The notes under the pieces are model-generated. The model ran no database searches and had not been told where the DNA came from. It saw only the letters and a program-made list of their open reading frames with translations. Positions 10,919 to 31,255 of a stretch of 32,687 bases of DNA are shown in pieces. The position numbers and the translations under genes were made by a program. Every line of letters starts with the position of its first letter. The stretch's first letter is position 1. Source of the stretch: Candidatus Cloacimonadota bacterium. GTDB taxonomy: Bacteria; Cloacimonadota; Cloacimonadia; Cloacimonadales; TCS61. The DNA is taken from the NCBI GenBank assembly GCA_021157525.1, contig JAGGWK010000021.1, positions 1 through 32,687 on the forward strand. The letters run 5' to 3'.

Positions 10919-11807
10919 AGGCCTGTGGGCTGCCATTGCTTGCTACGTGATGTGGGGGCTTCTACCTCTCTATTGGAAGGCCTTGGCCCACATTCCTGCT
11001 CATGAAATCCTGGCTCACCGTATGACGTGGTCCCTGGGATTTTGCCTGGTCGTGCTGGCTCTCAGTGGCCAGCGAACCCTGTGGAAACAGTTACGGGCCA
11101 AACCGTCCATGCTGGGCACCTATGGCTTCACCGCCCTATTGCTGAGTATCAATTGGTTTGTGTATATCTGGGCAACCACCCATGGCCATGTGCTGGATGC
11201 TAGCTTGGGGTACTTTATCAATCCTTTGTTCAGCGTGTTTCTGGGAGTAGTGGTGTTGCACGAAAAGCCGCGTCCATTGCAGTGGGCAGCTATCGGTATT
11301 GCTCTTGTCGGCGTTATCTGGCTCACCATTATCCATGGCCGGGTTCCCGTCATTGCTCTGGCTCTGGCCGGTTCCTTTGGTATCTATGGCCTGGCAAAGA
11401 AGCGCTCAGAACTCTCTTCGGTGCAGGGGCTTACACTGGAAACCGCAGTACTCTTTGTGCCGGCAGCGGCATTTTTACTTTTTCAGGATGCCCGTGGTGT
11501 TGGCAGTTTTGGTCACACCTCGGTACAGGACGGTTTGCTTCTGGCCTTTAGCGGTGTCGTTACGGCCTTACCACTGATGTTTTTTGCCATGGCTGCCCGA
11601 CGCATTCCTCTCAATCAACTGGGGTTTTTACAATTTATAGCGCCGATCCTGCAATTTTCTTTAGGCATCATTGCCTTTGGAGAAACACTATCTTCCAATC
11701 GCCTGGTAGGCTATGTGGTTATCTGGATAGCCCTGACCATCTTCGTTTTTGATAATATTCGGGGTACGAAGCGGTATCACAGAGGTAAGGCTCATGGAGT
11801 GGCTTAA
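10911..11807 (+). CDS. rarD: RarD-like EamA/DMT transporter
   Basis: 298 residues, about ten transmembrane helices, drug/metabolite transporter fold. The start MNRGLWAAIACYVMWGLLPLYWK is diagnostic of RarD proteins (Y-x-x-W-G-x-x-P-x-Y-(W/F)-K), and the LLSINWFVYIWA and SLGYFINPL motifs follow. ATG 10911 lies inside the end of the preceding gene (8-nt overlap); a longer upstream reading gives a non-family basic leader and is rejected. RarD proteins are presumed exporters; the substrate is unknown. The stop lies 14 nt inside the next gene. Confidence 0.9.
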   Translation: MNRGLWAAIACYVMWGLLPLYWKALAHIPAHEILAHRMTWSLGFCLVVLALSGQRTLWKQLRAKPSMLGTYGFTALLLSINWFVYIWATTHGHVLDASLGYFINPLFSVFLGVVVLHEKPRPLQWAAIGIALVGVIWLTIIHGRVPVIALALAGSFGIYGLAKKRSELSSVQGLTLETAVLFVPAAAFLLFQDARGVGSFGHTSVQDGLLLAFSGVVTALPLMFFAMAARRIPLNQLGFLQFIAPILQFSLGIIAFGETLSSNRLVGYVVIWIALTIFVFDNIRGTKRYHRGKAHGVA

Positions 11808-12426
11808 GTTTTTCGATTATTTTGGTACTTTCGTCTTTGCCATATCAGGAGCACTACGAGCTACCCGGCATCGGCTGGACATTCTTGGATTGCTGGTGCT
11901 TTCAGGGGTTACCGGTGTAACTGGTGGCGTGATACGTGATGTGATTCTGGGGGATGTGCCCCCGGTGGTATTTCGCAATGAGTTCTATCTCATTCTCTGC
12001 CTTCTGGCGGGAGTGATGGTGTTTTTTCTCTCCCGATACATCGCAGCACATTATAACATTATTCGGTATCTGGATGCCGTAGGGCTGGGGGTGTTTGCCG
12101 CCATTGGTGCTGCCAAAGCCACAGCCTTTGGTTTGGGTCCGGTGGGAGTAATCCTGCTTGGCACGGTTACCGCTATCGGTGGCGGCATCGTTCGTGATGT
12201 ACTGGTGCGAGAGATACCATCACTGCTGCTGAGAGACCTCTATGCCACCGCCGCAATGGCCGGAAGCGCCTTCTACTACCTTGCTCACCTCTGGCAATTG
12301 CCAATGATGGTGCAGGTAACGGGAACGGTGTTTCTCACTACCGGCATGCGATTGCTGGCGATCTTTTTTAAATTACAACTGCCAAGGTCTTTCAGACCGG
12401 CGGAAATGGACAATATTGATTTATGA
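11794..12426 (+). CDS. TRIC-type cation channel family protein (YicG/UPF0126)
   Basis: 210 residues, six to seven membrane helices in two repeats. Each repeat has the signature G-x-GG-x-x-RD: GVTGGVIRDVILGDVPP in the first and IGGGIVRDVLVREIPSLL in the second. This is the trimeric intracellular cation channel / UPF0126 family. ATG 11794 has AGAGGTAAGG upstream and gives MEWLKFFDYFGTFVFAISGA, the normal N-terminus. It overlaps rarD by 14 nt and its TGA overlaps the next ATG as ATGA. Ion or glycine transport has been suggested for relatives; the physiological substrate is open. Confidence 0.92.
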   Translation: MEWLKFFDYFGTFVFAISGALRATRHRLDILGLLVLSGVTGVTGGVIRDVILGDVPPVVFRNEFYLILCLLAGVMVFFLSRYIAAHYNIIRYLDAVGLGVFAAIGAAKATAFGLGPVGVILLGTVTAIGGGIVRDVLVREIPSLLLRDLYATAAMAGSAFYYLAHLWQLPMMVQVTGTVFLTTGMRLLAIFFKLQLPRSFRPAEMDNIDL

Positions 12427-12659
12427 AGCAATTTATTATTAAAACGATTGTGGCCCTGTTGGGTCTTGGTTTGGGTGCCGGCGGTGGCTGGCTTTTCTCC
12501 CGTTGGTATAGCTGTCTGGGAGGTAGCTGAGGGGCATGGAGCAATGCGTGGACCAGCATTGTATTTGGTGGACTTTTAGGCTATGTGATTGTCTCAGGAA
12601 TCGTGGATGCCCTTGCATCCAAAAGGAAAAAGAGTAAAGATGATATTTCGGCATCCTGA
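12423..12659 (+). CDS. Small two-helix membrane protein with in-frame TGA; candidate selenoprotein (C-x4-U)
   Basis: Starting from the ATG that overlaps the channel stop (ATGA), the frame reads 35 codons, one TGA (12528-12530), then 42 more codons to a second TGA (12657-12659). The product would be 78 residues: helix 1 (IIKTIVALLGLGLGAGGGWLF), the short segment C31-LGGS-U36, then SNAWTSIVFGGLLGYVIV as helix 2 and a basic tail. It aligns without gaps, from memory, to small DUF6132-like membrane proteins with the pattern C-x-x-G-x-C-x-x-x-S-x-x-x-x-S-x-x-x-G-x-L-x-G, and the TGA falls on the second cysteine. A hairpin follows the TGA (see next entry). The extended frame overlaps the next gene by 20 nt, in keeping with the overlapping style of this gene train; stopping at the first TGA would leave a 109-nt gap. 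Alternatives are a nonsense mutation or a sequence error. Confidence 0.62.
12541..12562 (+). promoter_or_regulatory. Candidate bacterial SECIS hairpin
   Basis: CAATGC (12542-12547) pairs perfectly with GCATTG (12556-12561), extended by a G-U pair (12541/12562); the 8-nt apical loop is GTGGACCA. Seventeen nt lie between the TGA and the loop, within the spacing usually quoted for bacterial SECIS elements (about 16-37 nt), and the loop begins with G as that consensus requires. The function is inferred from position and shape. Confidence 0.5.
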
Positions 12660-13230
12660 ACTTGGCATAGTAACGGTGTATCGGCATAGGCGCTATCGCC
12701 GCATTTCCTTACGACCTCAAGATATAGGAAGGGCGGCACTGTATGTGCCTCAAGAATTTTGTGACAAAGACGTACGCAGATTTTTTAAAGAGCACAAGAA
12801 AGCCATCACCGCTCTGTGCGATAAACAGCGGCGAATCTACGACGAAACGGCGCAAAAATACAACTATAATCCCCATATGAGCCAAGATCAGGCAATTGCA
12901 TACTTGGGAAAACGCCTCTCTTATTGGGCAAACAAAATCACCTTTGATGATGTACCGGTGGTCAACAAGGTCACCCGTGTTACCATTCGGAACCAGCGGA
13001 GCCGCTGGGGAAGTTGTTCACACCGAGGCCACATCAGCCTGAACATCATGCTGATGCGACTGCCAGAAGAATTACGTGATTATGTGCTGATTCATGAATT
13101 GGTGCATTTGCAAGAGCCTAATCACGGGGCTCTTTTCTGGAAATATATGGAAACACTTATCCCGAACGTAGGTGAATTGAAAAAAGCTGTACGGAACATT
13201 CAACCGTTGGCTCTCAAGGAGTTCCGCTGA
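12640..13230 (+). CDS. YgjP-like M48-type metallopeptidase
   Basis: 196 residues. The zinc-binding motif is HELVH (H152, E153, H156) followed by NHGALFW (H162), and the preceding SRWGSCS (about 121-127) is the second hallmark of the YgjP/WLM-like (DUF45) family. The ATG at 12640 is chosen because the similarity begins there and an A-rich AAGGAAAAAGAG precedes; an upstream start at 12589 would overlap the small membrane gene much further. Members are annotated as M48 metallopeptidases, and YgjP itself has been linked to UTP hydrolysis; the substrate is unsettled. Soluble, no signal peptide. Confidence 0.88.
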   Translation: MIFRHPELGIVTVYRHRRYRRISLRPQDIGRAALYVPQEFCDKDVRRFFKEHKKAITALCDKQRRIYDETAQKYNYNPHMSQDQAIAYLGKRLSYWANKITFDDVPVVNKVTRVTIRNQRSRWGSCSHRGHISLNIMLMRLPEELRDYVLIHELVHLQEPNHGALFWKYMETLIPNVGELKKAVRNIQPLALKEFR

Positions 13231-14462: not shown

Positions 14463-14483
14463 GGCATCATTTATGCCTTTTTT
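14463..14483 (+). terminator. Terminator for rightward transcripts
   Basis: GGCAT (14463-14467), 5-nt loop, ATGCC (14473-14477), then six T (14478-14483). It lies across the 3' end of the convergent rubrerythrin gene, so its stem is also transcribed on the minus strand, without a T-run there. Confidence 0.65.
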
Positions 14484-14923
14484 AAGGTATCTTGTATCTT
14501 ACTTACGTGACCTTTTTCCTGTTTTCTTAATAGCTCAAAAACATCTAACACATTGTCACTTATTTGAGTAAGGGTTGTTAACATGGTATAGGTTTGTTCA
14601 GTCTTTATCTCTCGTTGTAAGGCGATGTTTAAAACATCTTTGCTGGTGAAATCCTTCTCTATATTTTCGGTATTTATGATGACAGAAAGCATGTCTGTAT
14701 TCACTGGAATCTTCTGGGATAATTCTTTTTCGGTTAAAGCTCCTTTTTGTCTTAGCCTTCTCAAATGATTATAGTGATTTGTTTCATCATCAGCAAGTTT
14801 GGCAAGAAGCTCTTTAACGGTTTCATTAAGAACAATTTCTTTTGCTTTTGAATAAAAAGCAAAACTCTCCAATTCTATTTTCTCAGCATATTCAATAATT
14901 TCATTCAATGATAGCTCTCTCAT
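14471..14923 (-). CDS. Rubrerythrin-type diiron (ferritin-like) protein
   Basis: 150 residues forming a four-helix bundle. Likely iron ligands are E-x2-S-x-x-F-Y with EKIELESFAFY, then DDETNHYNHL (E-x2-H) in the first half and LQREIKTEQTY plus RKQEKGHVSKI (E-x2-H) in the second. There is no C-terminal rubredoxin domain (no CxxC pair), so it is an erythrin/ferritin-like protein rather than a full rubrerythrin. The family reduces hydrogen peroxide or binds iron in anaerobes. GAGGTGG precedes the ATG. It is the last gene of the membrane-complex operon, 32 nt downstream of the flavoprotein fusion, which could supply its electrons; that link is inference. Confidence 0.82.
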   Translation of the reverse strand: MRELSLNEIIEYAEKIELESFAFYSKAKEIVLNETVKELLAKLADDETNHYNHLRRLRQKGALTEKELSQKIPVNTDMLSVIINTENIEKDFTSKDVLNIALQREIKTEQTYTMLTTLTQISDNVLDVFELLRKQEKGHVSKIQDTLKKA

Positions 14924-14955
14924 ATTTCCACCTCGCTGTTACCGATTTTTATCAT

Positions 14956-16752
14956 TCATTTCTTTAGGAATTGATCAATTGCTCTTGCCGCAACATGACC
15001 ATTTGCAACACCATGGATCACATCCGGTCCTTGAATAATGTCTCCACCGACAAACAACCATTTCAGGTCAGATTGGAAGTTCTTATTCACTTGGATGCGA
15101 CCACGTGGCCCGAATTTCAGACCGGATTTTATCTCTTCGGAAAGATAGGATAGATCCATCCCCTGTCCGATAGATTCGACGATCATATCAGCTTCGAAGA
15201 ATTTTCTCTGGTTATCGTCAAATTTAGGGTTAAATCTGCCATCTTCATCGAACACAGAAAGGCACTTAACAACATGAAGTCCCTTGATTTTCCCATCACT
15301 AATTTCAATTTCTTTGGGTCCCCAACCAGGATCAATAACTGCTTTTTCTTCACGGGCTTCTACCACTTCTTCACGATCTGCCGGCATAATATCTTCGGTT
15401 TCCAGAGATGTAGTAAGTACATCCACTTTACCATATTTGATATTTTGCAATCGGGCTAACGTTCTGGTAATATCCATGGCAACATTTCCACCACCGATCA
15501 CCACAATTTTCTCAGCTACGTCTATCTCATTTCCCAGAGAAACTTCACGCAGAAGGTCGGTGGCAAAGTAAACTCTCTTGTTATCAGAACCTGGAATTCT
15601 GGTGCTACGACCAAGATGAAGTCCGGTTCCGGCAAACACTGCATCATAGTCTCTATGTAACTCTTCTAAAGAGATATCTTCTCCAACCCGAGTGCTAAAT
15701 TGCATCTCTACACCAAGAGATTTAATATAATCATAATCCTTTTCAATCTGATCATAGGGTAAGCGATATTCGGGAATACCATAACGAGTCATACCACCGC
15801 TATCGGGAAGGGCTTCAAATATTTTTACCTGATATCCCATAATAGCCAGATAGTATGCTGCCGAAATACCTGCAGGCCCTGCTCCGATTATCGCCACTTT
15901 TCTGTCTAAGATGGGATCGGCAAGATGTTCTGTTCCCAGAACTTCCATATATTTGTCTTTAGGAATCTGATCAGCTATATAGCGTTTTAGCCAGCGAATA
16001 GCAAGGGGCTCGCCATTGTGATGCAAGGCGCAAACAGTTTCGCATTTATGGGTACAAATACGTCCGCATATTTCAGGAAGGGGATTTGTTTCATAAAGGA
16101 TTCTGAAGGCATTTTCTATATCATCATCCCGGATAGCAGCGATGTAAGCCGGAATATCCATATGAGCCGGACATGTAGCAATACAAATGCCACACTCCAG
16201 ACATCTCTCCGCTTCCTTCATGGCCTGATCTTTGTTGTAACCTTTTACTATTTCAATGAAAGATTTGTCGCGGTTTTCTGGCTCAATCTCTTTCATCTTC
16301 ACACGATCATAATTGATAAGAGCTATCCCTTCGTCGCGTTTATAGCCTTTCGTTGCATCTTGCCATTTTGTTTTATCAGCACCGGGTATAAATCGATAAT
16401 CCTCAGGGTCATCTGCTACCCAGGTATAATCATTTGACATTGTAAGTGCACCTGTAGGACAAATATCTACACAGAGTCCACACCAGCAACAGCGACCGTA
16501 ATCTATTCTTGGTCTGAGCCCGCTATTGCCCTCTTTTGTCTCCTGACCTTCAACGGGTACCAGATCGATTGCGTCATTTTGGCAGATCTCTTCACAGCTA
16601 CCGCAGCCAATACATTTATCGAAATCATTTTTATGAAAACCACGATAATTAGCTGCTCCGGGTCTATCATTAATTGGATCTTTAATTGTCCAAGGTTTCT
16701 TAGCTGCTCTTTCCCAAACGTTAAATGGTGATAATATATCTTTTAATTTCAT
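14956..16752 (-). CDS. Fusion of Mbh/MbxN-type 2x[4Fe-4S] ferredoxin with GltD/NfnB-like NAD(P)H flavoprotein
   Basis: 598 residues. ATG 16752 is 2 nt after the upstream stop, with GAGAGG in front; a longer start at 16779 lies inside the upstream gene. Residues 47-57 and 88-98 are two C-x2-C-x2-C-x3-C ferredoxin motifs of the NuoI/MbhN type. From about 180 a GltD-like half begins: C184-x2-C-x2-C-x3-C194, then C229-x3-C-x3-C-x3-C241 (two more clusters), FAD site IIGAGPAG (288-295), NAD(P)-binding VIGGGNVAMD (418-427) and a closing GDIIQGPDVIHGVANGHVAA. It should connect the peripheral iron-sulfur chain of the complex to NAD(P)H. Fusion of the two parts into one chain is the striking point; in related systems they are usually separate proteins (from memory). 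Confidence 0.9.
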   Translation of the reverse strand: MKLKDILSPFNVWERAAKKPWTIKDPINDRPGAANYRGFHKNDFDKCIGCGSCEEICQNDAIDLVPVEGQETKEGNSGLRPRIDYGRCCWCGLCVDICPTGALTMSNDYTWVADDPEDYRFIPGADKTKWQDATKGYKRDEGIALINYDRVKMKEIEPENRDKSFIEIVKGYNKDQAMKEAERCLECGICIATCPAHMDIPAYIAAIRDDDIENAFRILYETNPLPEICGRICTHKCETVCALHHNGEPLAIRWLKRYIADQIPKDKYMEVLGTEHLADPILDRKVAIIGAGPAGISAAYYLAIMGYQVKIFEALPDSGGMTRYGIPEYRLPYDQIEKDYDYIKSLGVEMQFSTRVGEDISLEELHRDYDAVFAGTGLHLGRSTRIPGSDNKRVYFATDLLREVSLGNEIDVAEKIVVIGGGNVAMDITRTLARLQNIKYGKVDVLTTSLETEDIMPADREEVVEAREEKAVIDPGWGPKEIEISDGKIKGLHVVKCLSVFDEDGRFNPKFDDNQRKFFEADMIVESIGQGMDLSYLSEEIKSGLKFGPRGRIQVNKNFQSDLKWLFVGGDIIQGPDVIHGVANGHVAARAIDQFLKK

Positions 16753-16754
16753 TT

Positions 16755-17954
16755 TTACCTCTCTATTTCCGGTGGACACGTATGAAGTGAAACCATCAAA
16801 GCTGCTAAATCGGAGATTGATATATTTACCGCCAATTTTTCTAATACGGAAATTGCATGAGTATAGCTGGCACCACGGGCAAAGACACGTCTTGGATATT
16901 TTGTTCCATCAGAAACCATATAAAATCCATGTTCACCACGGGTAGATTCCGCTTTCACATAGGTTTGACCAGCCGGGATTTTCCAATGCAGTACATTAGG
17001 AAGCTTAGCTTGAATCTTCCCACCTTCCGGCATTTTGTCCATTATTTGAGAGATCAAATCCAAACTTTGATGAAGCTCTTGATATCTCACTTCTGCTCTG
17101 GCATAGGCATCTCCAACATCAGAAGTTATCATTTTCATATCCAGTTCAGCATATTTGCCATAGGGATTATTAATGCGGATGTCATCCTCTATGCCACTTG
17201 CCCTGGCAGATGGACCAACGATTCCATATTCTGTTACCATTTCCGGAGAGATAACGCCCAAACCTTTCAACCTGGCTTTCACAATAGCGTTATTGAAAAA
17301 GGTTTTTTCAATATCAAATAAAAGAGCTCTGGTACGTACAATAAGTTCTCTGGTTCTGTCTCTGAATCCTTCCGGAAGATCTTTACGAACTCCACCCGGA
17401 ATCATATACATATGGTAAACACGACCGCCGGTCATCTCTTCGAAAAGATCTAACCAGAAATCTCTCATTCCAATTGTCCATTGACCAATTGCACCCATAC
17501 CAAGAGAGCCTGCTTGACCACCAAGCCACATCAGAAAGCTTCCGACACGAGACATTTCCAAATTTAAAGTTCTCAACCAAAGTGCTTTTTCCGGAACAAC
17601 TATCCCAGCCAAATCCTCCATCGCTGCCGATACACAATATTCATTTGTATCAGGTTCAGGAACACAAATTCTGCATACGATTGGAAAGCATTGAATATAT
17701 CTCCGCCGCTCCATAAGTTTTTCAAAACCACGGTGAAGATAGCCTACATGAGTTTTGGCATCAACAATCTCATCACCGTTGATAATTAGCTCTACAGACA
17801 TATTTCCCGTTACACCGGGATGTTGAGGGCCTTGCCATGTTTTTATAAATTTTTGTGATTCCAAATCGATAACAGGTTTATCCTTTTCCATTTGAGGATA
17901 TTTAGATCTATCGGCTTCGAAGCCTTTATATTTACTCTCAGAATCTCTATTCAT
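16755..17954 (-). CDS. mbxL: NuoD/[NiFe]-hydrogenase large-subunit-like protein (MbxL/MbhL type)
   Basis: 399 residues; catalytic-subunit homologue of complex I and energy-converting hydrogenases. ATG 17954 overlaps the upstream stop by 8 nt and has AGGAGG closely upstream. N-terminal landmarks GPQHPG (42-47), GYLHRGFEK and the first metal motif VCRIC (C94, C97). The C-terminal motif reads HTCPPEIER: one Cys (C393) is present, but the position of the fourth NiFe cysteine is Glu396. A classical hydrogenase needs both CxxC pairs, so NiFe hydrogen chemistry is unlikely; this is an Mbx-type variant. It sits directly upstream of the ferredoxin-flavoprotein fusion. Confidence 0.9.
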   Translation of the reverse strand: MNRDSESKYKGFEADRSKYPQMEKDKPVIDLESQKFIKTWQGPQHPGVTGNMSVELIINGDEIVDAKTHVGYLHRGFEKLMERRRYIQCFPIVCRICVPEPDTNEYCVSAAMEDLAGIVVPEKALWLRTLNLEMSRVGSFLMWLGGQAGSLGMGAIGQWTIGMRDFWLDLFEEMTGGRVYHMYMIPGGVRKDLPEGFRDRTRELIVRTRALLFDIEKTFFNNAIVKARLKGLGVISPEMVTEYGIVGPSARASGIEDDIRINNPYGKYAELDMKMITSDVGDAYARAEVRYQELHQSLDLISQIMDKMPEGGKIQAKLPNVLHWKIPAGQTYVKAESTRGEHGFYMVSDGTKYPRRVFARGASYTHAISVLEKLAVNISISDLAALMVSLHTCPPEIER

Positions 17955-18507
17955 CATCCCTCCTGATTTTAGGAGATTTTGCAAAATCATGATACAATTT
18001 CTCTTTCATATATTCTTTTGGATCATTTGTCGATCTGCCTGGGCGGGGATAGAATGTTCTTTTGGAATATTCTAACGTATCAAAATCTCTTCGCATTGGA
18101 GGCATCTCTTCCCAACCTTCCAGAACAAAAGATTCATCTACCCGTGGAGAGCCGGGGAAGTTAATGCCATACATCTCATGGATTTCACGTTGGTATTGCC
18201 AGAGATGAGGCCAAATCCTATGCATAGAATCCATCTCGGCTTTTTCCCGATCGATCATAACATTAATGCCAAGGTTGATTTTAATCTCATAATTATAGAG
18301 CATATAGGTGAGTTGAAACTGATTATTTTCAATATAATCAACAGCTTGCATAAAATCCAGATGTTTGAAATTCTCGTCCAGTTTCAAATATCTCAAGATG
18401 AAATCGGTATGTTCTCTTTTTACCTTGATGAAATAGAGATCATCTCTTTGCTTTACAACCACAAGATCATCTATCTTTTCGTTCAATCTTTTAAGAATAT
18501 TTTTCAT
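17947..18507 (-). CDS. mbxK: NuoC/MbhK-like 30-kDa subunit
   Basis: 186 residues. The block HRIWPHLWQYQREIHEMYGINFPGSPR matches the complex I 30-kDa subunit signature (E-R-E-x-x-D-(L/M)-x-G-x-x-F-x-x-x-P), and the tail YSKRTFYPRPG also fits. It has no cofactor motif; in the family it is a structural subunit holding the NuoD- and NuoB-like proteins in the peripheral arm. AGGAG precedes the ATG. It overlaps mbxL by 8 nt and follows the NuoB-like gene by 8 nt. Confidence 0.9.
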   Translation of the reverse strand: MKNILKRLNEKIDDLVVVKQRDDLYFIKVKREHTDFILRYLKLDENFKHLDFMQAVDYIENNQFQLTYMLYNYEIKINLGINVMIDREKAEMDSMHRIWPHLWQYQREIHEMYGINFPGSPRVDESFVLEGWEEMPPMRRDFDTLEYSKRTFYPRPGRSTNDPKEYMKEKLYHDFAKSPKIRRDDE

Positions 18508-18515
18508 GTTTTCTC

Positions 18516-19157
18516 CTACCAGTTATAATCCGGCATGTTCCAATCTTTGATTATCTGTTTCTGATTTTTCTTATACCAATCGAAATTATCGGCATATTTG
18601 TTCATACCATCACATTCACCCTTTTGAATCTTCTCTTTCAATCGGTTAAATCCGGCAATAAGAGCTTCCGGGCGTGGCATGCATCCTGCGATATAGGTAT
18701 CTACGGGGATGTAATAATCAATCCTGTTTATGGTATTATAGCTATCATAGTACATACCACCGTTTATGGTACAACTTCCCAGAGCAATTACATATTTTGG
18801 GCCTTGCATCTGCTCATAACTGCGAACAATACGTTTGATAGTTTTAATGGAGGCATATCCGCCGATGATAAATACCGAAGCTTGACGAGGTGTTGGCCTT
18901 CCGGCAATTCCAAAGCGGGAAACATCAAAACGGGATGTCATTAATGGACGCAATTCCGTTGCCCCGCATCCTGTACCAAAAGCAAGTAGCCAAAGGGATC
19001 TTGCCCGTGCCCAGTTCACAAATTGTTCCAGGTATTTGTTTAGCGGTTCAACTCGAGAAGGTCTTGCATCAGAAAAAAGAATGCGTTCTTTTTCCGGTAA
19101 TCCTTCGTTCGCCAGTTTCATCTCTTTTTCTATTTCATTTAAATCTTTTTTTTCCAT
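18516..19157 (-). CDS. mbxJ: NuoB/MbhJ-like iron-sulfur subunit with one ligand cysteine missing
   Basis: 213 residues. The family carries the last [4Fe-4S] cluster before the active site. Ligands visible are C64 in FGTGCGATE, C129 in ALGSCTINGG and C159 in AGCMPRPEAL. Complex I has two adjacent cysteines at the first site (CC) and hydrogenases have CxxC; here only one is seen, with glycine around it, so a fourth ligand must come from elsewhere or the cluster is altered. The N-terminus has a ~50-residue charged extension (KKDLNEIEKEMK...). AAGGAG lies 7 nt upstream of the ATG. Confidence 0.9.
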   Translation of the reverse strand: MEKKDLNEIEKEMKLANEGLPEKERILFSDARPSRVEPLNKYLEQFVNWARARSLWLLAFGTGCGATELRPLMTSRFDVSRFGIAGRPTPRQASVFIIGGYASIKTIKRIVRSYEQMQGPKYVIALGSCTINGGMYYDSYNTINRIDYYIPVDTYIAGCMPRPEALIAGFNRLKEKIQKGECDGMNKYADNFDWYKKNQKQIIKDWNMPDYNW

Positions 19158-19166
19158 GATATCTCC

Positions 19167-20096
19167 TTAAAGATATGCGATATACAGTATCGCTAAAATT
19201 CCAATAGCAGTAGGCCATTTCAGGAAGAATCTAAAAGACTGTTCCGGTCTGAAACGGGGGAATGAAGCTCCTACAAATACCGAGAACATGTAGATGAAGA
19301 AGGTTTTTATCATCATAATAAGAAGTGCAACCAAGATATTCGGATGTGCAGCACCGCCGAAAAACAGATTCATAAAAAGGATCAATTTTGCAGCGGCAAA
19401 AAGGCCACGATTGGTTTGCAAGATTCCCAAAAAGCTTCCATTCATCTCGATGGGAGGTCCAATCGGGATTTCTTGAGGTGCCATGACAATGCTAAATGGT
19501 GCATGCCCATTCATCCCCAAAAGAGAGATCATTGCAGCAATCACTGCTAAGGGATTTGTAAATAGTGTCCAATTGAGAATACTACCCTGCTGAGCTTGTA
19601 CAATGGTCGTAATGTTAAGGGAGTGATATTGAATGGCAACTGAGATTATCGCAAGTGAAAAGGGGACTTCAAAAGCTGACATCTGAGATAAACCTCTGGC
19701 GATTCCCATGGGTGAATAAGGATGTCCACCCTCACCTGCACCTAAGGCCATTCCCAATTGACCAAAGAATATAAAATACATGACCAGTAACACATCTCCC
19801 CCCATTGAGAAATTCCCAAAAACCGTAGATCCTAAAATAACAGGGATAAAAAGATATGTTCCTAATCCGCCGGCAAAACGAAATACTGGTCCAAGAAAAA
19901 ACATATATCCATGAGAGATGGCAACTCGCCGGCTATGAGTTTGAATGATATCTAAAAAGGGTTGCCAAACTGGAGGTCCAAATCTGCCGTGAACGCGAGC
20001 ATAAATCTTGCGCACTATTCCGGTTAAAGTAAGGCCCCAAACGGTAGCAACCAGGATAGATATTACTGCATATAGTATTCTAATTATGATGTCCAT
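19167..20096 (-). CDS. mbxM: NuoH/MbhM-like membrane subunit
   Basis: 309 residues, about eight membrane helices. Signatures of the complex I NAD1 family: WQPFLDIIQT (the P-(L)-x-D-x-x-K region), GGHPYSPMGIARGLSQMSAFEVPF (E-x-x-x-P) and MAPQEIPIGPPIEMNG, the loop with the conserved acidic residues that couples the peripheral arm to the membrane arm. The protein carries the quinone-site fold in complex I, although Mbh/Mbx-type complexes do not use quinone. It starts 4 nt after the upstream stop, so coupling is likely. Confidence 0.92.
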   Translation of the reverse strand: MDIIIRILYAVISILVATVWGLTLTGIVRKIYARVHGRFGPPVWQPFLDIIQTHSRRVAISHGYMFFLGPVFRFAGGLGTYLFIPVILGSTVFGNFSMGGDVLLVMYFIFFGQLGMALGAGEGGHPYSPMGIARGLSQMSAFEVPFSLAIISVAIQYHSLNITTIVQAQQGSILNWTLFTNPLAVIAAMISLLGMNGHAPFSIVMAPQEIPIGPPIEMNGSFLGILQTNRGLFAAAKLILFMNLFFGGAAHPNILVALLIMMIKTFFIYMFSVFVGASFPRFRPEQSFRFFLKWPTAIGILAILYIAYL

Positions 20097-20099
20097 CTT

Positions 20100-23000
20100 T
20101 TACACTCCCATAACAATATATATCACAACAACATACAGGATGATATGCAGTACATATGTTTGGCCATTTCCGGTATAGATATGTCGAAAATAGTCTGCTA
20201 AACTGTGTGTCCATTCTGATGCTGAATGCCAGAAGTTCCAGATTCTTGGTTTACCCCAACCCCCCAGAGCTTTACGATAATGAGCATACATATTATGCGC
20301 AACATGGGTTGTCTGAGGAGACTCCGGTCTTTCGGCGGCATATACGATATTGAATTGTTTTACTTTTTGAGTTTTTCCAACCAGCAACAATAAGATGAGC
20401 AATGGGACAATAAAGGCACCCATAGTAACAAGCATTACTACGTGACCATCCCAATGTCCTAATTCACTGAAAATGGAGTAACCATCTATCCTGATTGAGG
20501 AGCCAAAATAGTGCATTGCAATTTTATTCAGCGGTTTAATTATCAGGTTTGGGAAAGCCGAGATAGCCATTATTCCACCCAGGAAAATATATTGTGGAAT
20601 AATAAACCAAACGGGTGCTTCTTTGATATCTTGATGTTCATATTTCAACTGCCCCAGGAATATCGAATGAATGATTCTGTAAAGGTAGAGGAAACTAACT
20701 GCTGATGCAAAGAATAACACACCGGCTTGTAAGTACCAGCCATTTGAGATGAATGCAGTATAGATAAGCCATTTCGCACCAAAACCAGATAATGGCGGCA
20801 CACCTGAAACAGCAATAATAGAGATAAGAACAGTAATATAAGACAGAGGCATTTTTTTTATCAAACCGCCCATCTCGTACATATTTCTTGTATGGGTTCG
20901 ATAATAGATTCCTGCCACAGCAATAAAAAGAGCAGATTTGAACATCATGTGATTAAATGCCAGATAAAGTGCAGAAACCCAACCTAAATGAGAGACCATG
21001 GCAATAGCTGCTACGATATATCCCACCTGACTCATACTGGAATATGCCAGTAATCGTTTTGCATCCTCTTGAAATGAAGCCAGAAAAGCTCCCACAATAG
21101 CGGTAAGAACTCCTATCCAGCCCACCCAATAGAAAATATCAAAAGATGGGGCAAATTTCACATAAGATATTCCAACCAGCAGAAGTCCAAAGACACCGGC
21201 TTTTAGTAAGATGGCTGATATGAAGGAAGATACATCAGCTTCTGCCTCGGCATGAGCTTCCGGCAACCAAATATGAACTCCAAGAGAACCTGATTTTATC
21301 ATAAAACCAATTGAGAGAAGTATGATAGAAATAAGGGGAAGTTGAACATTGGCCAAAGATATTACCAGTGGTGAATTTCCCATGAGTTGTGGAGCAAAGG
21401 CAAAACCAACCATCATCAGATATGCACCAGCAGTTGAGAAAATCATATACATAAGAGATGCCTTCTGTGCCTGCTTACCCCTGAGAATAAGTAAGAAGGA
21501 TGAAATTGTCATGAATTCCCAGGTTAAGAAAAATTCCAGATAATTTGTGGCAATTATCAAGTTCCCAAATGAGAAGATCATCATCAGCAAAAAGCCATAG
21601 AATCCTTCACTTTTTCCTGTTCTGTTTAAGGTGCTGATAATGTTAACAGCACTTCCGACAATAAAGATAATTCCGAAGAATAGCTGAATATTACTTTCAA
21701 AGGGATAGATATAATATCCATACGCAAGTACCGCTAACAAAGAGAGTAGTCCTTTTACCTTTGAAGGTAAGAAATCTATAATGTCAATTACCAGAACGGC
21801 TAAAACGGGAAGAATATGAATAAGGCTAAATCCATAATATACCTTCATTATCATAGCTGCAAAGAAAATAGCTATCACACCCAAAAAAGATGTTGAGAAA
21901 ATCTTACTGGCATCCCAGCGAGGTATTGTTGCAGCAATATCACTTTTTACCGTTAGAGTGAACCATCTGAAAAGGAAAATTATTTCAAATAACGAACCTA
22001 ACAAAATTGCGCTTAACGCAAAAAGCATCTTGCTGTGAACCAATAGCTTCACCAGCTCCCACTTTGCCCAAAATCCGGCAAAAGGAGGAATACCTGCTAA
22101 AGCAAAAAGAAATATGCCAAAGAGAATAAGCAGAGATCTATTTCCTCTTAACACATTCCAATCTGAGATATTCTCATGTTTAACAATCCCACTAAGCCAG
22201 AAAAGCCCAGCTTTGGAGATAAGATGATTGATGAAAAAACCACCAACTATCAGATAAATAAGATGTTGTGGAGCGTTTGCCGTGAACACTAAACTTGCCA
22301 CCAATAATCCCACCTGGCCAATAGATGAATATCCCAATAGCCGTTTGGCTTTTTTTTGCTTTAACGCTAACATATTGGAAAACAGGAAAGTAATAACTCC
22401 TGCGATTCCAAATACATTCAAAAAGCGCTCTGGCAGGATTGGCATGATCTTATAAAAGAGAAACAAAATTGCTGCTGAATTTACCACTGCAATCACAGAA
22501 ACAATGCCCGAATCTACCGCTTCATAAACATCTAAAGCCCAACCATTTGCAGGGAAGGGTTTCAATTCTATAAATATCGCTATTGATAACAAAAACAGCG
22601 CTATTGAACCATAATTTGTAAATTGTGATGCTTGAATAAAATCGATGTTTAAATTTCCTGAGAAATAGTAAATAAAGACAACTCCCAGTAAGAAAAATGT
22701 AGATGCAGTCACTCCGGCCAGCATATACTTGAAACCAGCGGAAAGAGATTTTCCTGTTTTACCAAAACTGGTGAGAGAATAGGTGGAAATCGATAAAATT
22801 TCCAAAAATACATACATATTAAAAAGGTCACGCGTCATCACCAAACCATTTACCCCCATAATGAGAATAAGGTATAAGGTTAGTGAAGAAATGTTACTCT
22901 CTTTAAATTTCTTATACAGAAATATTGCTGCAAACAGACCAATGAGGTTTGTAAAAAGCAATACAAAAGACTCTTGCACACCAAGCTGTAAATTAATTGA

Positions 23001-23210
23001 GACGGGTGCTCTAAAACCAGCTGTGTTTATCGTTAAGGTGGGAACACCTAAAAAGAGGAAACGATAAAACCAATCTGCAATAACAAGTACATTAAAGGTG
23101 AGTACGCCATAAAAGGCTGTCAGCGAAAATTTACGGTTTGTTTTATCGATGACAGATAAAAGGAAACCAATCGCCAATGAAAGAATAAGTATATAAATTG
23201 GGCTTACCAT
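20100..23210 (-). CDS. Fused double antiporter subunit (MbxH-MbxH', two MrpD/NuoL-M-like modules)
   Basis: 1036 residues, more than twice the usual length of one MrpD/NuoM-type subunit. The first module (about 1-505) has the TM5 glutamate in VFLEILS (E137), the lysine in IELKPFPANGW (K217) and a second KAGLF lysine region. The second module (about 506-930) repeats this: LTWEFMTIS (E565), IKSGSLGVHIWLPEAHAEAE (K639) and NHMMFKSALF. Each should form one ion-translocation path. The last ~110 residues form a soluble/amphipathic segment plus a terminal helix. AGGAG precedes the ATG, which overlaps mrpC by 7 nt. No frameshift or internal stop was seen; fusion of H and H' is the simplest reading. 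Confidence 0.92.
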   Translation of the reverse strand: MVSPIYILILSLAIGFLLSVIDKTNRKFSLTAFYGVLTFNVLVIADWFYRFLFLGVPTLTINTAGFRAPVSINLQLGVQESFVLLFTNLIGLFAAIFLYKKFKESNISSLTLYLILIMGVNGLVMTRDLFNMYVFLEILSISTYSLTSFGKTGKSLSAGFKYMLAGVTASTFFLLGVVFIYYFSGNLNIDFIQASQFTNYGSIALFLLSIAIFIELKPFPANGWALDVYEAVDSGIVSVIAVVNSAAILFLFYKIMPILPERFLNVFGIAGVITFLFSNMLALKQKKAKRLLGYSSIGQVGLLVASLVFTANAPQHLIYLIVGGFFINHLISKAGLFWLSGIVKHENISDWNVLRGNRSLLILFGIFLFALAGIPPFAGFWAKWELVKLLVHSKMLFALSAILLGSLFEIIFLFRWFTLTVKSDIAATIPRWDASKIFSTSFLGVIAIFFAAMIMKVYYGFSLIHILPVLAVLVIDIIDFLPSKVKGLLSLLAVLAYGYYIYPFESNIQLFFGIIFIVGSAVNIISTLNRTGKSEGFYGFLLMMIFSFGNLIIATNYLEFFLTWEFMTISSFLLILRGKQAQKASLMYMIFSTAGAYLMMVGFAFAPQLMGNSPLVISLANVQLPLISIILLSIGFMIKSGSLGVHIWLPEAHAEAEADVSSFISAILLKAGVFGLLLVGISYVKFAPSFDIFYWVGWIGVLTAIVGAFLASFQEDAKRLLAYSSMSQVGYIVAAIAMVSHLGWVSALYLAFNHMMFKSALFIAVAGIYYRTHTRNMYEMGGLIKKMPLSYITVLISIIAVSGVPPLSGFGAKWLIYTAFISNGWYLQAGVLFFASAVSFLYLYRIIHSIFLGQLKYEHQDIKEAPVWFIIPQYIFLGGIMAISAFPNLIIKPLNKIAMHYFGSSIRIDGYSIFSELGHWDGHVVMLVTMGAFIVPLLILLLLVGKTQKVKQFNIVYAAERPESPQTTHVAHNMYAHYRKALGGWGKPRIWNFWHSASEWTHSLADYFRHIYTGNGQTYVLHIILYVVVIYIVMGV

Positions 23211-23557
23211 TTTAACTCCTGATAATCATCAATTGATAGCGATTTGTTCTTTTGGTATAATTTTATAACAAAGGTCAACATCAAAGCTGTTACTGCCAGA
23301 CCGATGACGATGGCGGTAAGAACCAACGCAGATGGAATGGGATCAACGATTTTATTTGCTGCGTCTGCCACACTCACGGATGCATCCAGGATAGGTGCTG
23401 TACGCCCTTTTATATAGCCTATGGAGACGATGATCAGGTGTACGCCGGTATCTATGATGGAAAAACCGATGATGATTTTAATAAGGTTTTTTTGGGTGAG
23501 CATGGCCCAAAGGCCTATGATTACCAGCAAAAACCCCAATGTCATTACCAGGTTCAT
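23204..23557 (-). CDS. mrpC: MrpC/MbhG-like (NuoK-type) subunit
   Basis: 117 residues, three membrane helices. Matches MrpC/NuoK: helix 1 (LVMTLGFLLVIIGLWAML), helix 2 with G-F-S-I-I-D-T-G-V-H-L, then a loop and IPSALVLTAIVIGLAVTALML, the DP-I-P-x-A-L-V-L-T-A-I-V-I motif typical of MrpC. The start overlaps the upstream stop as ATGA with GAGGGGGG upstream. Base composition changes from GC-richer to AT-richer inside the last part of this gene. Confidence 0.92.
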   Translation of the reverse strand: MNLVMTLGFLLVIIGLWAMLTQKNLIKIIIGFSIIDTGVHLIIVSIGYIKGRTAPILDASVSVADAANKIVDPIPSALVLTAIVIGLAVTALMLTFVIKLYQKNKSLSIDDYQELKW

Positions 23558-24234
23558 TCTTCCCCCCTCATGGCATGCAGGATGCCTACCAGTTCTGTTC
23601 CTACTTTCAAACCAATCAGACTGTAAATTAACGGGATGGCGCCGGCACTGAAGATGGTGCCAAAGGTGCCCAGCGGCAGGATGCGGTTATCCAGAAATCC
23701 GCCGGCAAGTACTATTCCCAATGCCCCGATAGTTACATAAAAGAAGCCGGAAAATGATTCGAGAAAGAGAAACACATTGTGGCTCCAATCCTGATTTATC
23801 AGCATCATGAACAGGATGCCTGAAGCGATAACCACGCCGCCCTGAAATCCGCCTCCCGGTGTGAGGTGACCATGCATAAAGATGTACACCCCAAAGAGGA
23901 TGATGATGGGAAGCAGGAAGGATGCGCCGTTTTGCAATAATTCCGAAGCAGGACGCTTAGGGGTGATGAGTTTTTTCTTTTTACCCATCAAAAAGCCGAT
24001 ACCTGCCGTGGCGATAAAGAGTACCGTCACCTCACCCAGAGTATCAAGACCACGGTAGGTTACCACGATGGCGGTTACCAGGTTTGGGGCGCCAAGGTCG
24101 TCAGCTCCCTGAGTAGCGTAATAATTGGCCAGAGGAGTGAGGGATGTGTGGAGTGGCGTATTGATAAGCATTGGCGCAAAGATGAGAGCGGCCAGCAGCA
24201 CAATAGCAACCAAGGACAATACCTGTTTAATCAT
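23554..24234 (-). CDS. Fused MbhE- and MrpB/MbhF-like subunit
   Basis: 226 residues. The N-terminal half contains NLVTAIVVTYRGLDTLGEVTVLF, the pattern of the MrpA C-terminal/MbhE region; the second half has FGVYIFMHGHLTPGGGFQGGVV, the hallmark of MrpB (MbhF). The ATG overlaps the upstream stop by 8 nt, with AGGAGG in front. In Mrp antiporters this pair forms the Na+-handling part of the membrane arm. Fusion of E and F is also what I recall for MbxF. Confidence 0.88.
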   Translation of the reverse strand: MIKQVLSLVAIVLLAALIFAPMLINTPLHTSLTPLANYYATQGADDLGAPNLVTAIVVTYRGLDTLGEVTVLFIATAGIGFLMGKKKKLITPKRPASELLQNGASFLLPIIILFGVYIFMHGHLTPGGGFQGGVVIASGILFMMLINQDWSHNVFLFLESFSGFFYVTIGALGIVLAGGFLDNRILPLGTFGTIFSAGAIPLIYSLIGLKVGTELVGILHAMRGEE

Positions 24235-24484
24235 CGGTATCCTCCTCCTTTTGTTTGATGTTTTTTAGCGCCAACAGAAACACAACGGTGGTGAGACCAG
24301 AGCCTATGGCGGCTTCAGTCATCGCCACATCCGGCGCAGCAAGAAGGAGATAGATGAGACTGGCCAGCAAACTGATGATTCCGGCTGCAATTACCGATGA
24401 CACCAGGTTTTTGATGTACACGGCAAGAAAAGCTGCCACCAGCATTATACTGCCTAAAATGATGATAAAAACGGTGTTTAACAT
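24227..24484 (-). CDS. MbhD-like small membrane subunit (MrpA C-terminal-type)
   Basis: 85 residues, three helices, beginning MLNTVFIIILGSIML. The diagnostic stretch is LLAAPDVAMTEAAIGSGLTTVVFL (A-P-D-V-A-x-T-E-A-x-x-G), seen in MbhD and in the MrpA C-terminus (DUF4040-like). The start is the ATG at 24484 with GGAGGAC upstream; a longer reading of the frame adds 53 polar residues from the antisense of the neighbouring frame and is rejected. Overlaps both neighbours by a few nt. Confidence 0.88.
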   Translation of the reverse strand: MLNTVFIIILGSIMLVAAFLAVYIKNLVSSVIAAGIISLLASLIYLLLAAPDVAMTEAAIGSGLTTVVFLLALKNIKQKEEDTDD

Positions 24485-24810
24485 TTGTCCTCCTCGGTTG
24501 CTTCGTCTTCCCGAAGGCGATCTATCACGGTGCGGTTGGTGAGGGCTATCTTCATGTGGTGGGCAGCTCGGGCCAGAGCGTGGGACGATAGTGGATTGGT
24601 AAAGAGTATAAAGAGAATCAGGATTGTAACTTTCCACACGCATCCGCAGTAGCCTATGCCGATTCCCGTTAAAAACAGGATGCTACCCAGGGTGGTGGCT
24701 TTGGTGCCTGCCTGCATCCGATTGTACACATCGGGCATACGGAGTATACCTAATGCTCCTAAAAGCAAAAACAGTGAACCGATGAGAGTAAGGATGGATC
24801 CTGCCAGCAT
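24478..24810 (-). CDS. mrpG: MrpG/MbhC-like subunit
   Basis: 110 residues. GILRMPDVYNRMQAGTKATTLGSILFL is the MrpG signature (R-x-P-D-x-x-x-R-x-H/Q-A-x-T-x-x-x-T-x-G). Two to three helices with a charged C-terminus (DRLREDEATEEDKC). The ATG at 24810 overlaps the upstream TGA as TGATG; a GTG one codon earlier is less likely. Accessory subunit of the Mrp-type antiporter module. Confidence 0.9.
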   Translation of the reverse strand: MLAGSILTLIGSLFLLLGALGILRMPDVYNRMQAGTKATTLGSILFLTGIGIGYCGCVWKVTILILFILFTNPLSSHALARAAHHMKIALTNRTVIDRLREDEATEEDKC

Positions 24811-25070
24811 CACAGCCCCCTTTCAATGTAGCGAGCCACGGCTATTACACCAAGAAAACTGATGAGGGCATAGACCAAAGCCACATCCAGATAGATGGCG
24901 CGTCCTGCCATGGCGGCTATGAGAGCAATAAGGGATATGGAAATGATGGTCATTACGTCCAGAGCAACTGCGCGGTCGGCGGGAGTTGGACCCTTTATCA
25001 TGCGTAAAAGTGGCAGGAGCAACGCGCTAAAGGCGATGATTCCTGCGATAGTATAAAGCAGATTAGCCAA
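24810..25070 (-). CDS. mrpF: MrpF/MbhB-like subunit
   Basis: 86 residues, three helices. The motif GPTPADRAVALDVMT (G-P-x-x-x-D-R-x-x-A-x-D) is characteristic of MrpF, followed by YLDVALVYALISFLGVIAVARY. It overlaps the MrpE-like gene by 8 nt and ends in TGATG with mrpG. Role: small subunit required for cation/proton antiport. Confidence 0.92.
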   Translation of the reverse strand: MANLLYTIAGIIAFSALLLPLLRMIKGPTPADRAVALDVMTIISISLIALIAAMAGRAIYLDVALVYALISFLGVIAVARYIERGL

Positions 25071-25557
25071 AAATCACCTCCAGATATTTTTCGAAGGTGT
25101 GCACGATTTTATTCGTGGCATCTTCAATGTTTGCAGATCGTACGTCGATCCAATGAATATAATAATACTCACCACAGGTATCCACCGTTAAGGTGCCGGG
25201 GGTGAGGGTAATGGAATTTGCCAGGATTGTTCGGCCCATTTTCGATTTCAACCGTGTCTTCACCTTTACAATGCCCGGGGAAATGGGCAGGGAGGGGGAT
25301 AGCACCCGGCTGGCAACATCGAGGTTTGCCTTGAAGAGCTCCCACAAAAAGACAAAGATATAGAGAATAAAGAAAAAAATGGCTTTGGGGTGCAGATTGA
25401 TGTCTGCAAAGATGTGGGCTTTGGAACCAAAAATAAGGGTGATAATAAGGGCTACTATCCCACCTGCAATCAGCTCCTGCGCATGTACACCAGCTAAAGA
25501 TATCCAGACAATGATCAAAGAGATAAACAGTAACAAATGCTGTTTTAAAGTTTTCAT
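25063..25557 (-). CDS. mrpE: MrpE/MbhA-like subunit, first gene of the complex operon
   Basis: 164 residues with two to three N-terminal helices and a cytoplasmic C-terminal domain. VDT-x-G-E-Y-Y-Y-I-H-W-I-D-V and NSITLTPGTLTVD are the MrpE core (the family consensus is N-S-I-T-L-T-P-G-T). GAGG lies 5 nt upstream of the ATG. It opens an operon of thirteen genes that run to 14471 with mostly overlapping junctions; a candidate promoter lies 34-62 nt upstream. Confidence 0.92.
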   Translation of the reverse strand: MKTLKQHLLLFISLIIVWISLAGVHAQELIAGGIVALIITLIFGSKAHIFADINLHPKAIFFFILYIFVFLWELFKANLDVASRVLSPSLPISPGIVKVKTRLKSKMGRTILANSITLTPGTLTVDTCGEYYYIHWIDVRSANIEDATNKIVHTFEKYLEVIFG

Positions 25558-29587: not shown

Positions 29588-30703
29588 CTATTTCATCAAG
29601 ACGCATTTCATCAGCTCGCTGGAGTTGGTACCACTTTTCATACGATAGAGATACACGCCTGAGGTAACAGCAGCGCCTTCATTGTCTGTACCATCCCAGA
29701 TAACGGAGTAGGAGAAGGCATCCTGCGTGGAAGTGGAAGTGAATCCTTCAGATGAGAGGGTTTTTACTATCTGGCCGCGAGAATTAAACACCTCAATGCG
29801 GGCGTCGGCGCTGATTTCCTGATTTAGTGAAAAACTGAAAGTTGTACTGGGATTAAAGGGATTGGGGTAGTTTTGGTGCAGCCTCACAGATCCGGGAGTA
29901 ACGGCTACGCCTGCACCGGCGCCGGCCACTTCCACCGTCCAGATAGTGGGATATTCGTATTCTCCATTGCTCACCAGAGATTTGATCTGGTAGGTGCCGC
30001 CCAGGGGGAAGGAGTAGAAAAATACATTGGATGTTTCGGTCTGCAGTTCGTCATTTACATACCATTGATAGGTGAGGTTAGAATCGTATGAATAGACGGC
30101 GAAGACGATGTATCCCCCTGCATCTGCGGTAAGCTCATGCTCTGGCGGAACGATTTCGTAGAGCTGCGGTGTGACGATGCGGATGCTGTCAATTTCCACA
30201 TCAATGAGGGGCTTGTTTGCAGGATTGCCATTGGGACCGGTGGTTGGCACAACGTTTATGGCATCAACCACATCAAAGCCTTCGATCACATTGCCAAAGG
30301 CGGCGTAGGTGTAATTACCGCTGGTGAAAGGTTCTACCGTGATAAAATATTGCGAGCCTGCGCTGTTTGGCTGGCCGGTGTTTGCCATGCCGATTACATA
30401 GGGCTCATTAAACAGGATGTTTTCGTTAAATTCGTCGGGGATTGTATAGCCAGGACCTCCATAGCCATTGCCATTCGGTCAGCCATCCTGATTCATAAAA
30501 CCGGCAATAACCCGATGAAAAATGAGGTTATCATAAAAATTGGCATTGGTGAGATCTTTGAAATTGTTCACCGTTATAGGAACGTAATCTTCCCGAAGCT
30601 CCACTTTAAAGGTACCCATAGATGTGTACCACTGTGCCACCGATTGACCAAAAAGGCCCCCCATCATGGCCAGAATACCCAAAATAATCAAAAACCGTTT
30701 CAT
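29588..30703 (-). CDS. Secreted cyclophilin-type peptidyl-prolyl isomerase with T9SS tail, interrupted by one in-frame TGA
   Basis: ATG 30703 follows GAGGAGG and starts a signal peptide (MKRFLIILGILAMMGGLFG). The cyclophilin core reads FHRVIAGFMNQDG, then TGA at codon 75 (30481-30479), then PNGNGYGGPGYTIPDEF, NEPYVIGMANTGQPNSAGSQYFIT, all in one frame, so only the single codon is anomalous. The family has D or C at this place (Q-x-G-(D/C)-P-x-G). After the isomerase comes a ~100-residue Ig/PKD-like part (YQWYVNDELQ) and a T9SS type A domain (NYPNPFNPSTTFSFSL ... MKCVLMK). With TGA decoded, the product is 371 residues. Options are selenocysteine (a hairpin follows), a recent nonsense mutation from a Cys codon, or a sequence error. 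Confidence 0.75.
30445..30463 (-). promoter_or_regulatory. Weak candidate SECIS hairpin in the cyclophilin gene
   Basis: On the minus strand TATGG pairs with CTATA (5 bp, one G-U) around the loop AGGTCCTGG, starting 20 nt after the TGA. The loop begins AGGTC, like the AGGUCU loop I recall for E. coli fdhF. The same bases encode the conserved YGGPGY segment, so the hairpin may be coincidence. Confidence 0.3.
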
Positions 30704-30718
30704 CTGTCCTCCTCTCAT

Positions 30719-30733
30719 ATTTGTTTAACAAAT
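30719..30733. promoter_or_regulatory. Perfect inverted repeat upstream of the cyclophilin gene
   Basis: ATTTGTT-T-AACAAAT, 7-bp arms with a one-base centre, 16-30 nt upstream of the start codon. Position suggests an operator or a -10 overlap site. The rest of the 282-nt gap to the nucleotidase-like gene holds no gene that I can support. Confidence 0.4.
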
Positions 30734-30985
30734 CCAAGAAAGCCCTATGGGCAGTTATGACGTCAAGAATAAAAAAAGCATTCCCTTCGCCAAGGCTCCG
30801 GCATTGGGAAAATCTCGGAGGGGCTGGATGTCTTCAATGCATTCGGAAGTTAAAAGGCAAATACCTTTTTCAGATTTATGAAAACATGCCGGGTTTGATC
30901 TCCACCTCTCCCCCCAACTTACAAACCCTTTGACGTACCAACAGAAAAACAGATGGTGGTAATGAAATAAATTCCTGGAGGTCTG

Positions 30986-31255
30986 ATGAGGAACTATGTA
31001 ATCATTCTGCTGCTTTGCACTGCCATTGCCCTGATGGCCAGCGAGGTGGATACCCTTTTTATTTTGAATACCACCGACGTTCATGCTGAGCTTCTGGGCT
31101 TTGATTTTACCACTCGGCAGCCACGGCCGCAAGGTCTTGCTCGCGTGCAAACCCTCATCGATTCACTGCGTAACCACCACCATAACGTGTTACTTCTGGA
31201 TTGCGGCGATATGATGCAGGGCAACATCCTGGCATATTACTACAGTTCGTCATGA
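30986..31255 (+). pseudogene. 5'-nucleotidase/UshA-like gene truncated by an IS element
   Basis: GGAGG (30977-30981) and ATG 30986 start a good signal peptide (MRNYVIILLLCTAIALMAS), followed by LFILNTTDVHAEL (metal-binding D-x-H) and VLLLDCGDMMQGNILAYYY (G-D-x-x-x-G), the first two blocks of the calcineurin-like phosphoesterase domain of UshA/CpdB-type 5'-nucleotidases. The family usually exceeds 500 residues; here similarity stops after about 87 residues at an IS end, where a stop is met at once. The rest of the gene may lie beyond the right end of the IS, outside the window. Confidence 0.85.

Follow-up and report, generated by a model that had tools for sequence, protein, structure and literature searches.

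An in-frame UGA codon predicted to encode selenocysteine in a DUF6132-like membrane protein of Cloacimonadota

The described systems closest to the locus reported here are bacterial SECIS-dependent selenoproteins with a C-x2-U or U-x2-C motif, which share with it an in-frame UGA, a downstream hairpin lying within the coding region, homologues that carry cysteine (Cys), and a SelA/SelB/SelD/tRNA-Sec system. The protein considered here differs from them in having C-x4-U in a predicted two-helix membrane hairpin. Two sulfur-related selenoprotein types, compared by their inventory names only, belong to different families: the TsoB rhodanese/DsbD fusion-like protein (NF045694), with U-x4-U, and the YeeE/YedE thiosulfate transporters (PF04143). 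The 2026 inventory comprises 119 prokaryotic selenoprotein families and subfamilies (PMC13188914), and neither DUF6132 nor a C-x4-U motif appears among them. In the literature searched, DUF6132 occurred in no selenoprotein paper, and the sole text match was an unrelated paper on an EamA (DUF6) transporter. A first, sequence-only reading of this DNA knew of no account of the family as a selenoprotein; none was found in the sources covered, a groundwater survey (doi 10.1016/j.celrep.2025.116760) lying outside that coverage. The locus thus apparently represents a selenoprotein family not described before, decoded in the usual bacterial way.

A second comparison is with the Cys-containing members of DUF6132 from Bacteroidota, Bacillota, Spirochaetota and other phyla, which are likewise probable small two-helix membrane proteins. 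Both forms share the core G-[YW]-L-Y-Y-[KR]-x-[IV]-G-C-x-S-G-x-[CU]-P-x-T-S-N, with the same spacing between the two Cys/Sec positions, and the selenocysteine (Sec) form swaps the second Cys for Sec. After this core the Cys members continue as S-N-P-[YFW], whereas the Sec form has S-N-[VA]-W; the TGG codon for this Trp provides the SECIS loop with its GG.

The reading frame and its family

The window, meaning the whole stretch of 32,687 nucleotides that was analysed (contig JAGGWK010000021.1 of a Candidatus Cloacimonadota bacterium), holds the gene at positions 12423-12659 of the forward strand. As first described, its frame starts at an ATGA overlap, is interrupted by one TGA (codon 36, 12528-12530) and continues to a terminal TGA stop at 12657-12659. 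Translating 12423-12659 with TGA as U gives a product of 78 residues, MKQFIIKTIVALLGLGLGAGGGWLFSRWYSCLGGSUGAWSNAWTSIVFGGLLGYVIVSGIVDALASKRKKSKDDISAS, with Sec at position 36. The motif residues singled out at the outset are all present: Cys31 (codon TGT, 12513-12515), which is invariant across the family alignments and is the partner of Sec36 in C-x4-U, and the series S40-x4-S45-x3-G49-x-L51-x-G53. This translation, homology across the TGA and a leave-one-out profile mark the gene as coding for a Sec-containing DUF6132-like membrane protein. We put the probability that it encodes a DUF6132-type protein with Sec inserted at roughly 0.93; insertion of Sec at codon 36, taken by itself, is predicted with still greater confidence.

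The orthologues pass the Pfam DUF6132 model, but the window protein alone, contrary to what the first description might suggest, gave no match at the gathering cut-off of 23.2 bits for PF19628. Against the same cut-off, the best relative (L011) scored 32.8 bits, and two Cys members (L017 and L030) scored 30.0 and 25.6 bits. A profile built from close relatives without the window protein scored that protein at 38.2 bits (E 2.4e-10), the best of 4000 shuffled controls reaching 14.4 bits. Neither the window protein nor its relatives matched an NCBIfam family above cut-off. A weak Pfam match of the window protein to Peptidase_U4 (E 0.05) was dismissed as reflecting general hydrophobicity.

The gene is tightly packed at both ends. 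Upstream, a gene of the Gly_transporter family (PF03458, UPF0126 type; Pfam E 2e-48) at 11794-12426 (+) overlaps its start codon. Downstream, a YgjP-like metallopeptidase gene (PF01863; Pfam E 2e-35) occupies 12640-13230 (+), and its likely ATG at 12640 lies inside the readthrough frame. Given the ATGA overlap on one side and this ATG on the other, it is the readthrough frame, not a 35-residue open reading frame (ORF), that occupies the space between the two genes.

A further frame of the window, 30688-31086 (+), also has just one TGA, with 81 open codons on one side and 51 on the other, and lies outside the main genes.

Decoding machinery, relatives and the bSECIS hairpin

The genome encodes a complete set of Sec components, which excludes a lack of machinery, a possibility raised earlier as an objection. 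It has a tRNA-Sec (60.7 bits, anticodon UCA) close to SelB, together with SelB (314 bits), SelA (538 bits) and SelD (382 bits). SelD (L039:1501-2424) has one in-frame TGA near its start, followed about 18 nt later by a hairpin whose loop is GGG, and is itself a predicted selenoprotein. Among the 20 genomes that carry the Sec form, SelB exceeded the curated cut-off in 18, and the other two, which are 73% and 86% complete, contain SelB-like fragments. In a family of the same order (f10), no SelB was found above cut-off and the protein was absent from the genomes searched. An unusual tRNA-Sec of Cloacimonetes type has been noted (PMC5330540), in keeping with the use of Sec in the phylum.

A homologue was present in 25 of 99 related genomes (24 besides the window's own), most matches having one internal TGA, and a profile applied to 125 genomes of the phylum detected the protein in 30. 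Reading the DNA at the position in question showed that codon to be TGA in 20 Cloacimonadota sequences (the window and 19 others) and Cys in six other members (L014, L017, L018, L030, L031 and L032); three further matches without an internal stop fall outside these counts. The sequence-only reading had allowed that same-lineage homologues might carry an ordinary stop here, but those lacking TGA all have Cys where the residue was read. The identical TGA in 20 separate assemblies also makes a sequencing error untenable. Among the best-matching 80 loci of a second collection, every TGA form belonged to Cloacimonadota and the other phyla had a Cys codon, a scan that covered the best-matching relatives only and so leaves room for Sec forms elsewhere. 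No relative of the protein was found in the viral contigs searched.

One Cys orthologue (L014/L048, on contig C216 of genome G039) sits in the same gene order as the Sec relatives. It reads GGT TGT AAA GGT GGT TGT, that is, Cys and one codon shorter, and it retains the hairpin stem. A tree with few columns, which needs three Sec/Cys changes overall, places it inside a Sec group, on a branch marked with a star. The Cys in this orthologue is likely a recent replacement, and we infer its direction as Sec to Cys. Since Cys forms are also present in genomes that bear SelB, they cannot be put down to a lost machinery.

Two variants were also seen. One Sec member (L140, G124:C7) has C-x3-U in place of the C-x4-U spacing. 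A divergent small membrane-like protein (L147:1501-1683, equivalent to G049:C8:1666-1848) has C-SGGG-TGA and a hairpin 3' of the TGA; it scores 13 bits against the leave-one-out profile and is possibly a second Sec-containing branch.

The hairpin that would direct Sec insertion lies at 12541-12562 (+), with the arms GCAATGC and GCATTGT and the loop GTGGACCA. Initially described as a perfect 6-bp stem (CAATGC at 12542-12547 pairing with GCATTG at 12556-12561) whose loop starts with G at 17 nt past the TGA, it proved real and is extended by an outer G-U pair to 7 bp. The hairpin itself begins about 11 nt past the UGA, within the coding sequence. Published rules for bSECIS elements specify a loop of 3-9 nt, a stem of 4-16 bp, a G in the first two loop positions, a spacing of 16-37 nt and an MFE of at most -7.5 (PMC13188914). 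The window hairpin fits these rules, with a loop of 8 nt, a stem of 7 bp, G in first place, a spacing of 17 nt and an MFE between -10.8 (43 nt) and -15.5 (53-54 nt), and all 20 TGA-form sequences have a stem-loop of the published geometry.

For the window alone the hairpin is moderately unusual only, being equalled in 38 of 4000 synonymous reshufflings. The folding energy of the whole segment gave z -2.2 against dinucleotide shuffles (53 nt) and z -0.2 against synonymous reshuffles; not falling below the latter, it is not a useful statistic here. Conservation and covariation in the 20 genomes are stronger evidence for the hairpin than these window-only statistics. Stem pairing is preserved in 95% of cells, with three pairs changed on both sides, and the covariation score of 0.31 was reached by none of 500 shuffles and compares with at most 0.11 for slid partners. 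The relatives close their stems with AACGTTT/AAACGTT or AATGCTT/AAGCATT, and the apical loop is GGTC, 19 nt past the TGA, in 18 of the 20 sequences and GGTT in L033. The window hairpin, with its 8-nt loop at 17 nt, is without the two inner pairs of the relatives and has GUGGACCA instead of GGUC, but the GG that the Trp codon contributes to the loop keeps its position. Most Cys members have S-N-P-Y or similar after the core and Sec members S-N-V-W or S-N-A-W, a pattern consistent with the hairpin dictating the codons there. The proposal that this UGA is read as selenocysteine is thus strongly supported by the machinery, by the TGA and Cys relatives, by the bSECIS rules and by covariation.

Predicted structure, gene neighbourhoods and possible role

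In an AlphaFold2 model, helix 1 spans residues 2-32 (12426-12518, +), and helix 2 with a basic tail spans residues 42-77 (12546-12653, +), a part that is conserved under purifying selection in the relatives and would be made only upon UGA readthrough. The model is of moderate confidence (mean pLDDT 74.5, pTM 0.39) and places Sec36 in the loop between the helices and Cys31 at the end of helix 1. The positive-inside rule is ambiguous, as the loop and the N-terminus each have one or two positive charges. The sole hint, the basic C-terminus, points tentatively to a C-terminus inside and a loop outside.

We propose that ribosomes decode UGA codon 36 as selenocysteine through SelA, SelB, SelD, tRNA-Sec and the bSECIS hairpin. 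The product would form a membrane hairpin of two helices, with Cys31 and Sec36 in the short stretch that joins them. These two residues could form a reversible selenenyl-sulfide, and the pair, anchored in the membrane, may act in thiol/persulfide redox chemistry or in a sulfur relay, Sec standing where the homologues use Cys. This membrane-anchored thiol/persulfide role is tentative and was suggested by the neighbours of Cys homologues. A set of 72 such neighbour proteins, in which Flavobacterium is over-represented, contained 22 matches to thioredoxin, 13 to rhodanese, 7 to the metallo-beta-lactamase fold, 5 to Pyr_redox_2 and 2 to YgaP-like TM. We take the metallo-beta-lactamase fold to be as in persulfide dioxygenases and Pyr_redox_2 as in CoA-disulfide reductases. 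In Cloacimonadota, one Cys member is followed by two thioredoxin-like genes.

The neighbourhoods of the Sec form look different. In the window, YgjP and then nitroreductase genes lie downstream of the Sec gene; in the relatives, YgjP-like, GNAT, MFS and nitroreductase-like genes are nearby, and a YgjP-type gene adjoins the Sec gene in several of them. This common gene order supports orthology of the window protein and its relatives, and no evident sulfur genes were found beside the Sec-form loci in the neighbourhoods examined. Sec may be inserted into a protein of another kind, such as one that binds metal, assists transport or has a structural part in another membrane complex. The membrane selenoproteins of the inventory, which include mercuric transport and Cu/Zn efflux proteins (PMC13188914), are compatible with such a role, but the thioredoxins and rhodaneses that often adjoin the Cys homologues argue against it, and we give it somewhat less than an even chance.

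Returning to the thiol/persulfide role, its fullest version would be a new selenoprotein family built on a minimal two-helix hairpin, in which a C-x4-U selenenyl-sulfide passes on electrons or sulfane sulfur at the surface of the membrane and the embedded SECIS has shifted S-N-P-Y to S-N-V-W. Taken whole, this picture is rather unlikely.

On the opposite strand of the window, at 14471-25557 (-), a rubrerythrin-like gene adjoins genes for a ferredoxin/Pyr_redox flavoprotein and for complex I/Mrp-like subunits (49, 30 and 20 kDa, NADHdh and a proton antiporter). This cluster resembles an energy-converting membrane hydrogenase or oxidoreductase.

Coding constraint past the TGA and significance of the gene

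Under the standard table 11 reading, TGA would be a genuine stop, as it is elsewhere in the window, and the gene would yield a 35-residue single-helix peptide or be a decaying pseudogene. The second half of the frame, however, is conserved in 20 genomes. After the TGA and the hairpin, variation at the three codon positions in these genomes is 0.27, 0.07 and 0.53, and median dN/dS is 0.22 over the 25 codons after the TGA compared with 0.27 before it, values that are rough because dS is near saturation. The codons past the TGA are under purifying selection, and the codon-position pattern together with the low dN/dS excludes an untranslated remnant. With a Cys codon at the place of the TGA in homologues and a conserved, covarying hairpin behind it, a genuine stop is very improbable. 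Reassignment of TGA to an ordinary amino acid such as Trp or Gly in this lineage would also account for an in-frame TGA inside a conserved frame, but it is scarcely credible, given that TGA ends 7 of the 32 main ORFs picked in the window, so that, as already noted, the code is not simply reassigned, that the aligned residue is Cys and that a full Sec system is present.

Read as a Sec codon, this UGA would enlarge the prokaryotic selenoproteome by a family that seems not to have been described before, found in a phylum that is largely uncultured and known mainly through metagenomes. With the standard code, the gene would be missed or annotated as a 35-residue fragment. With its 78 residues, the protein is small enough to test in a simple way why a membrane thiol pair uses Sec in place of Cys, and orthologues of both kinds at the same syntenic position offer a natural comparison. 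The locus may also provide a functional handle on DUF6132, a family for which we found no functional paper.
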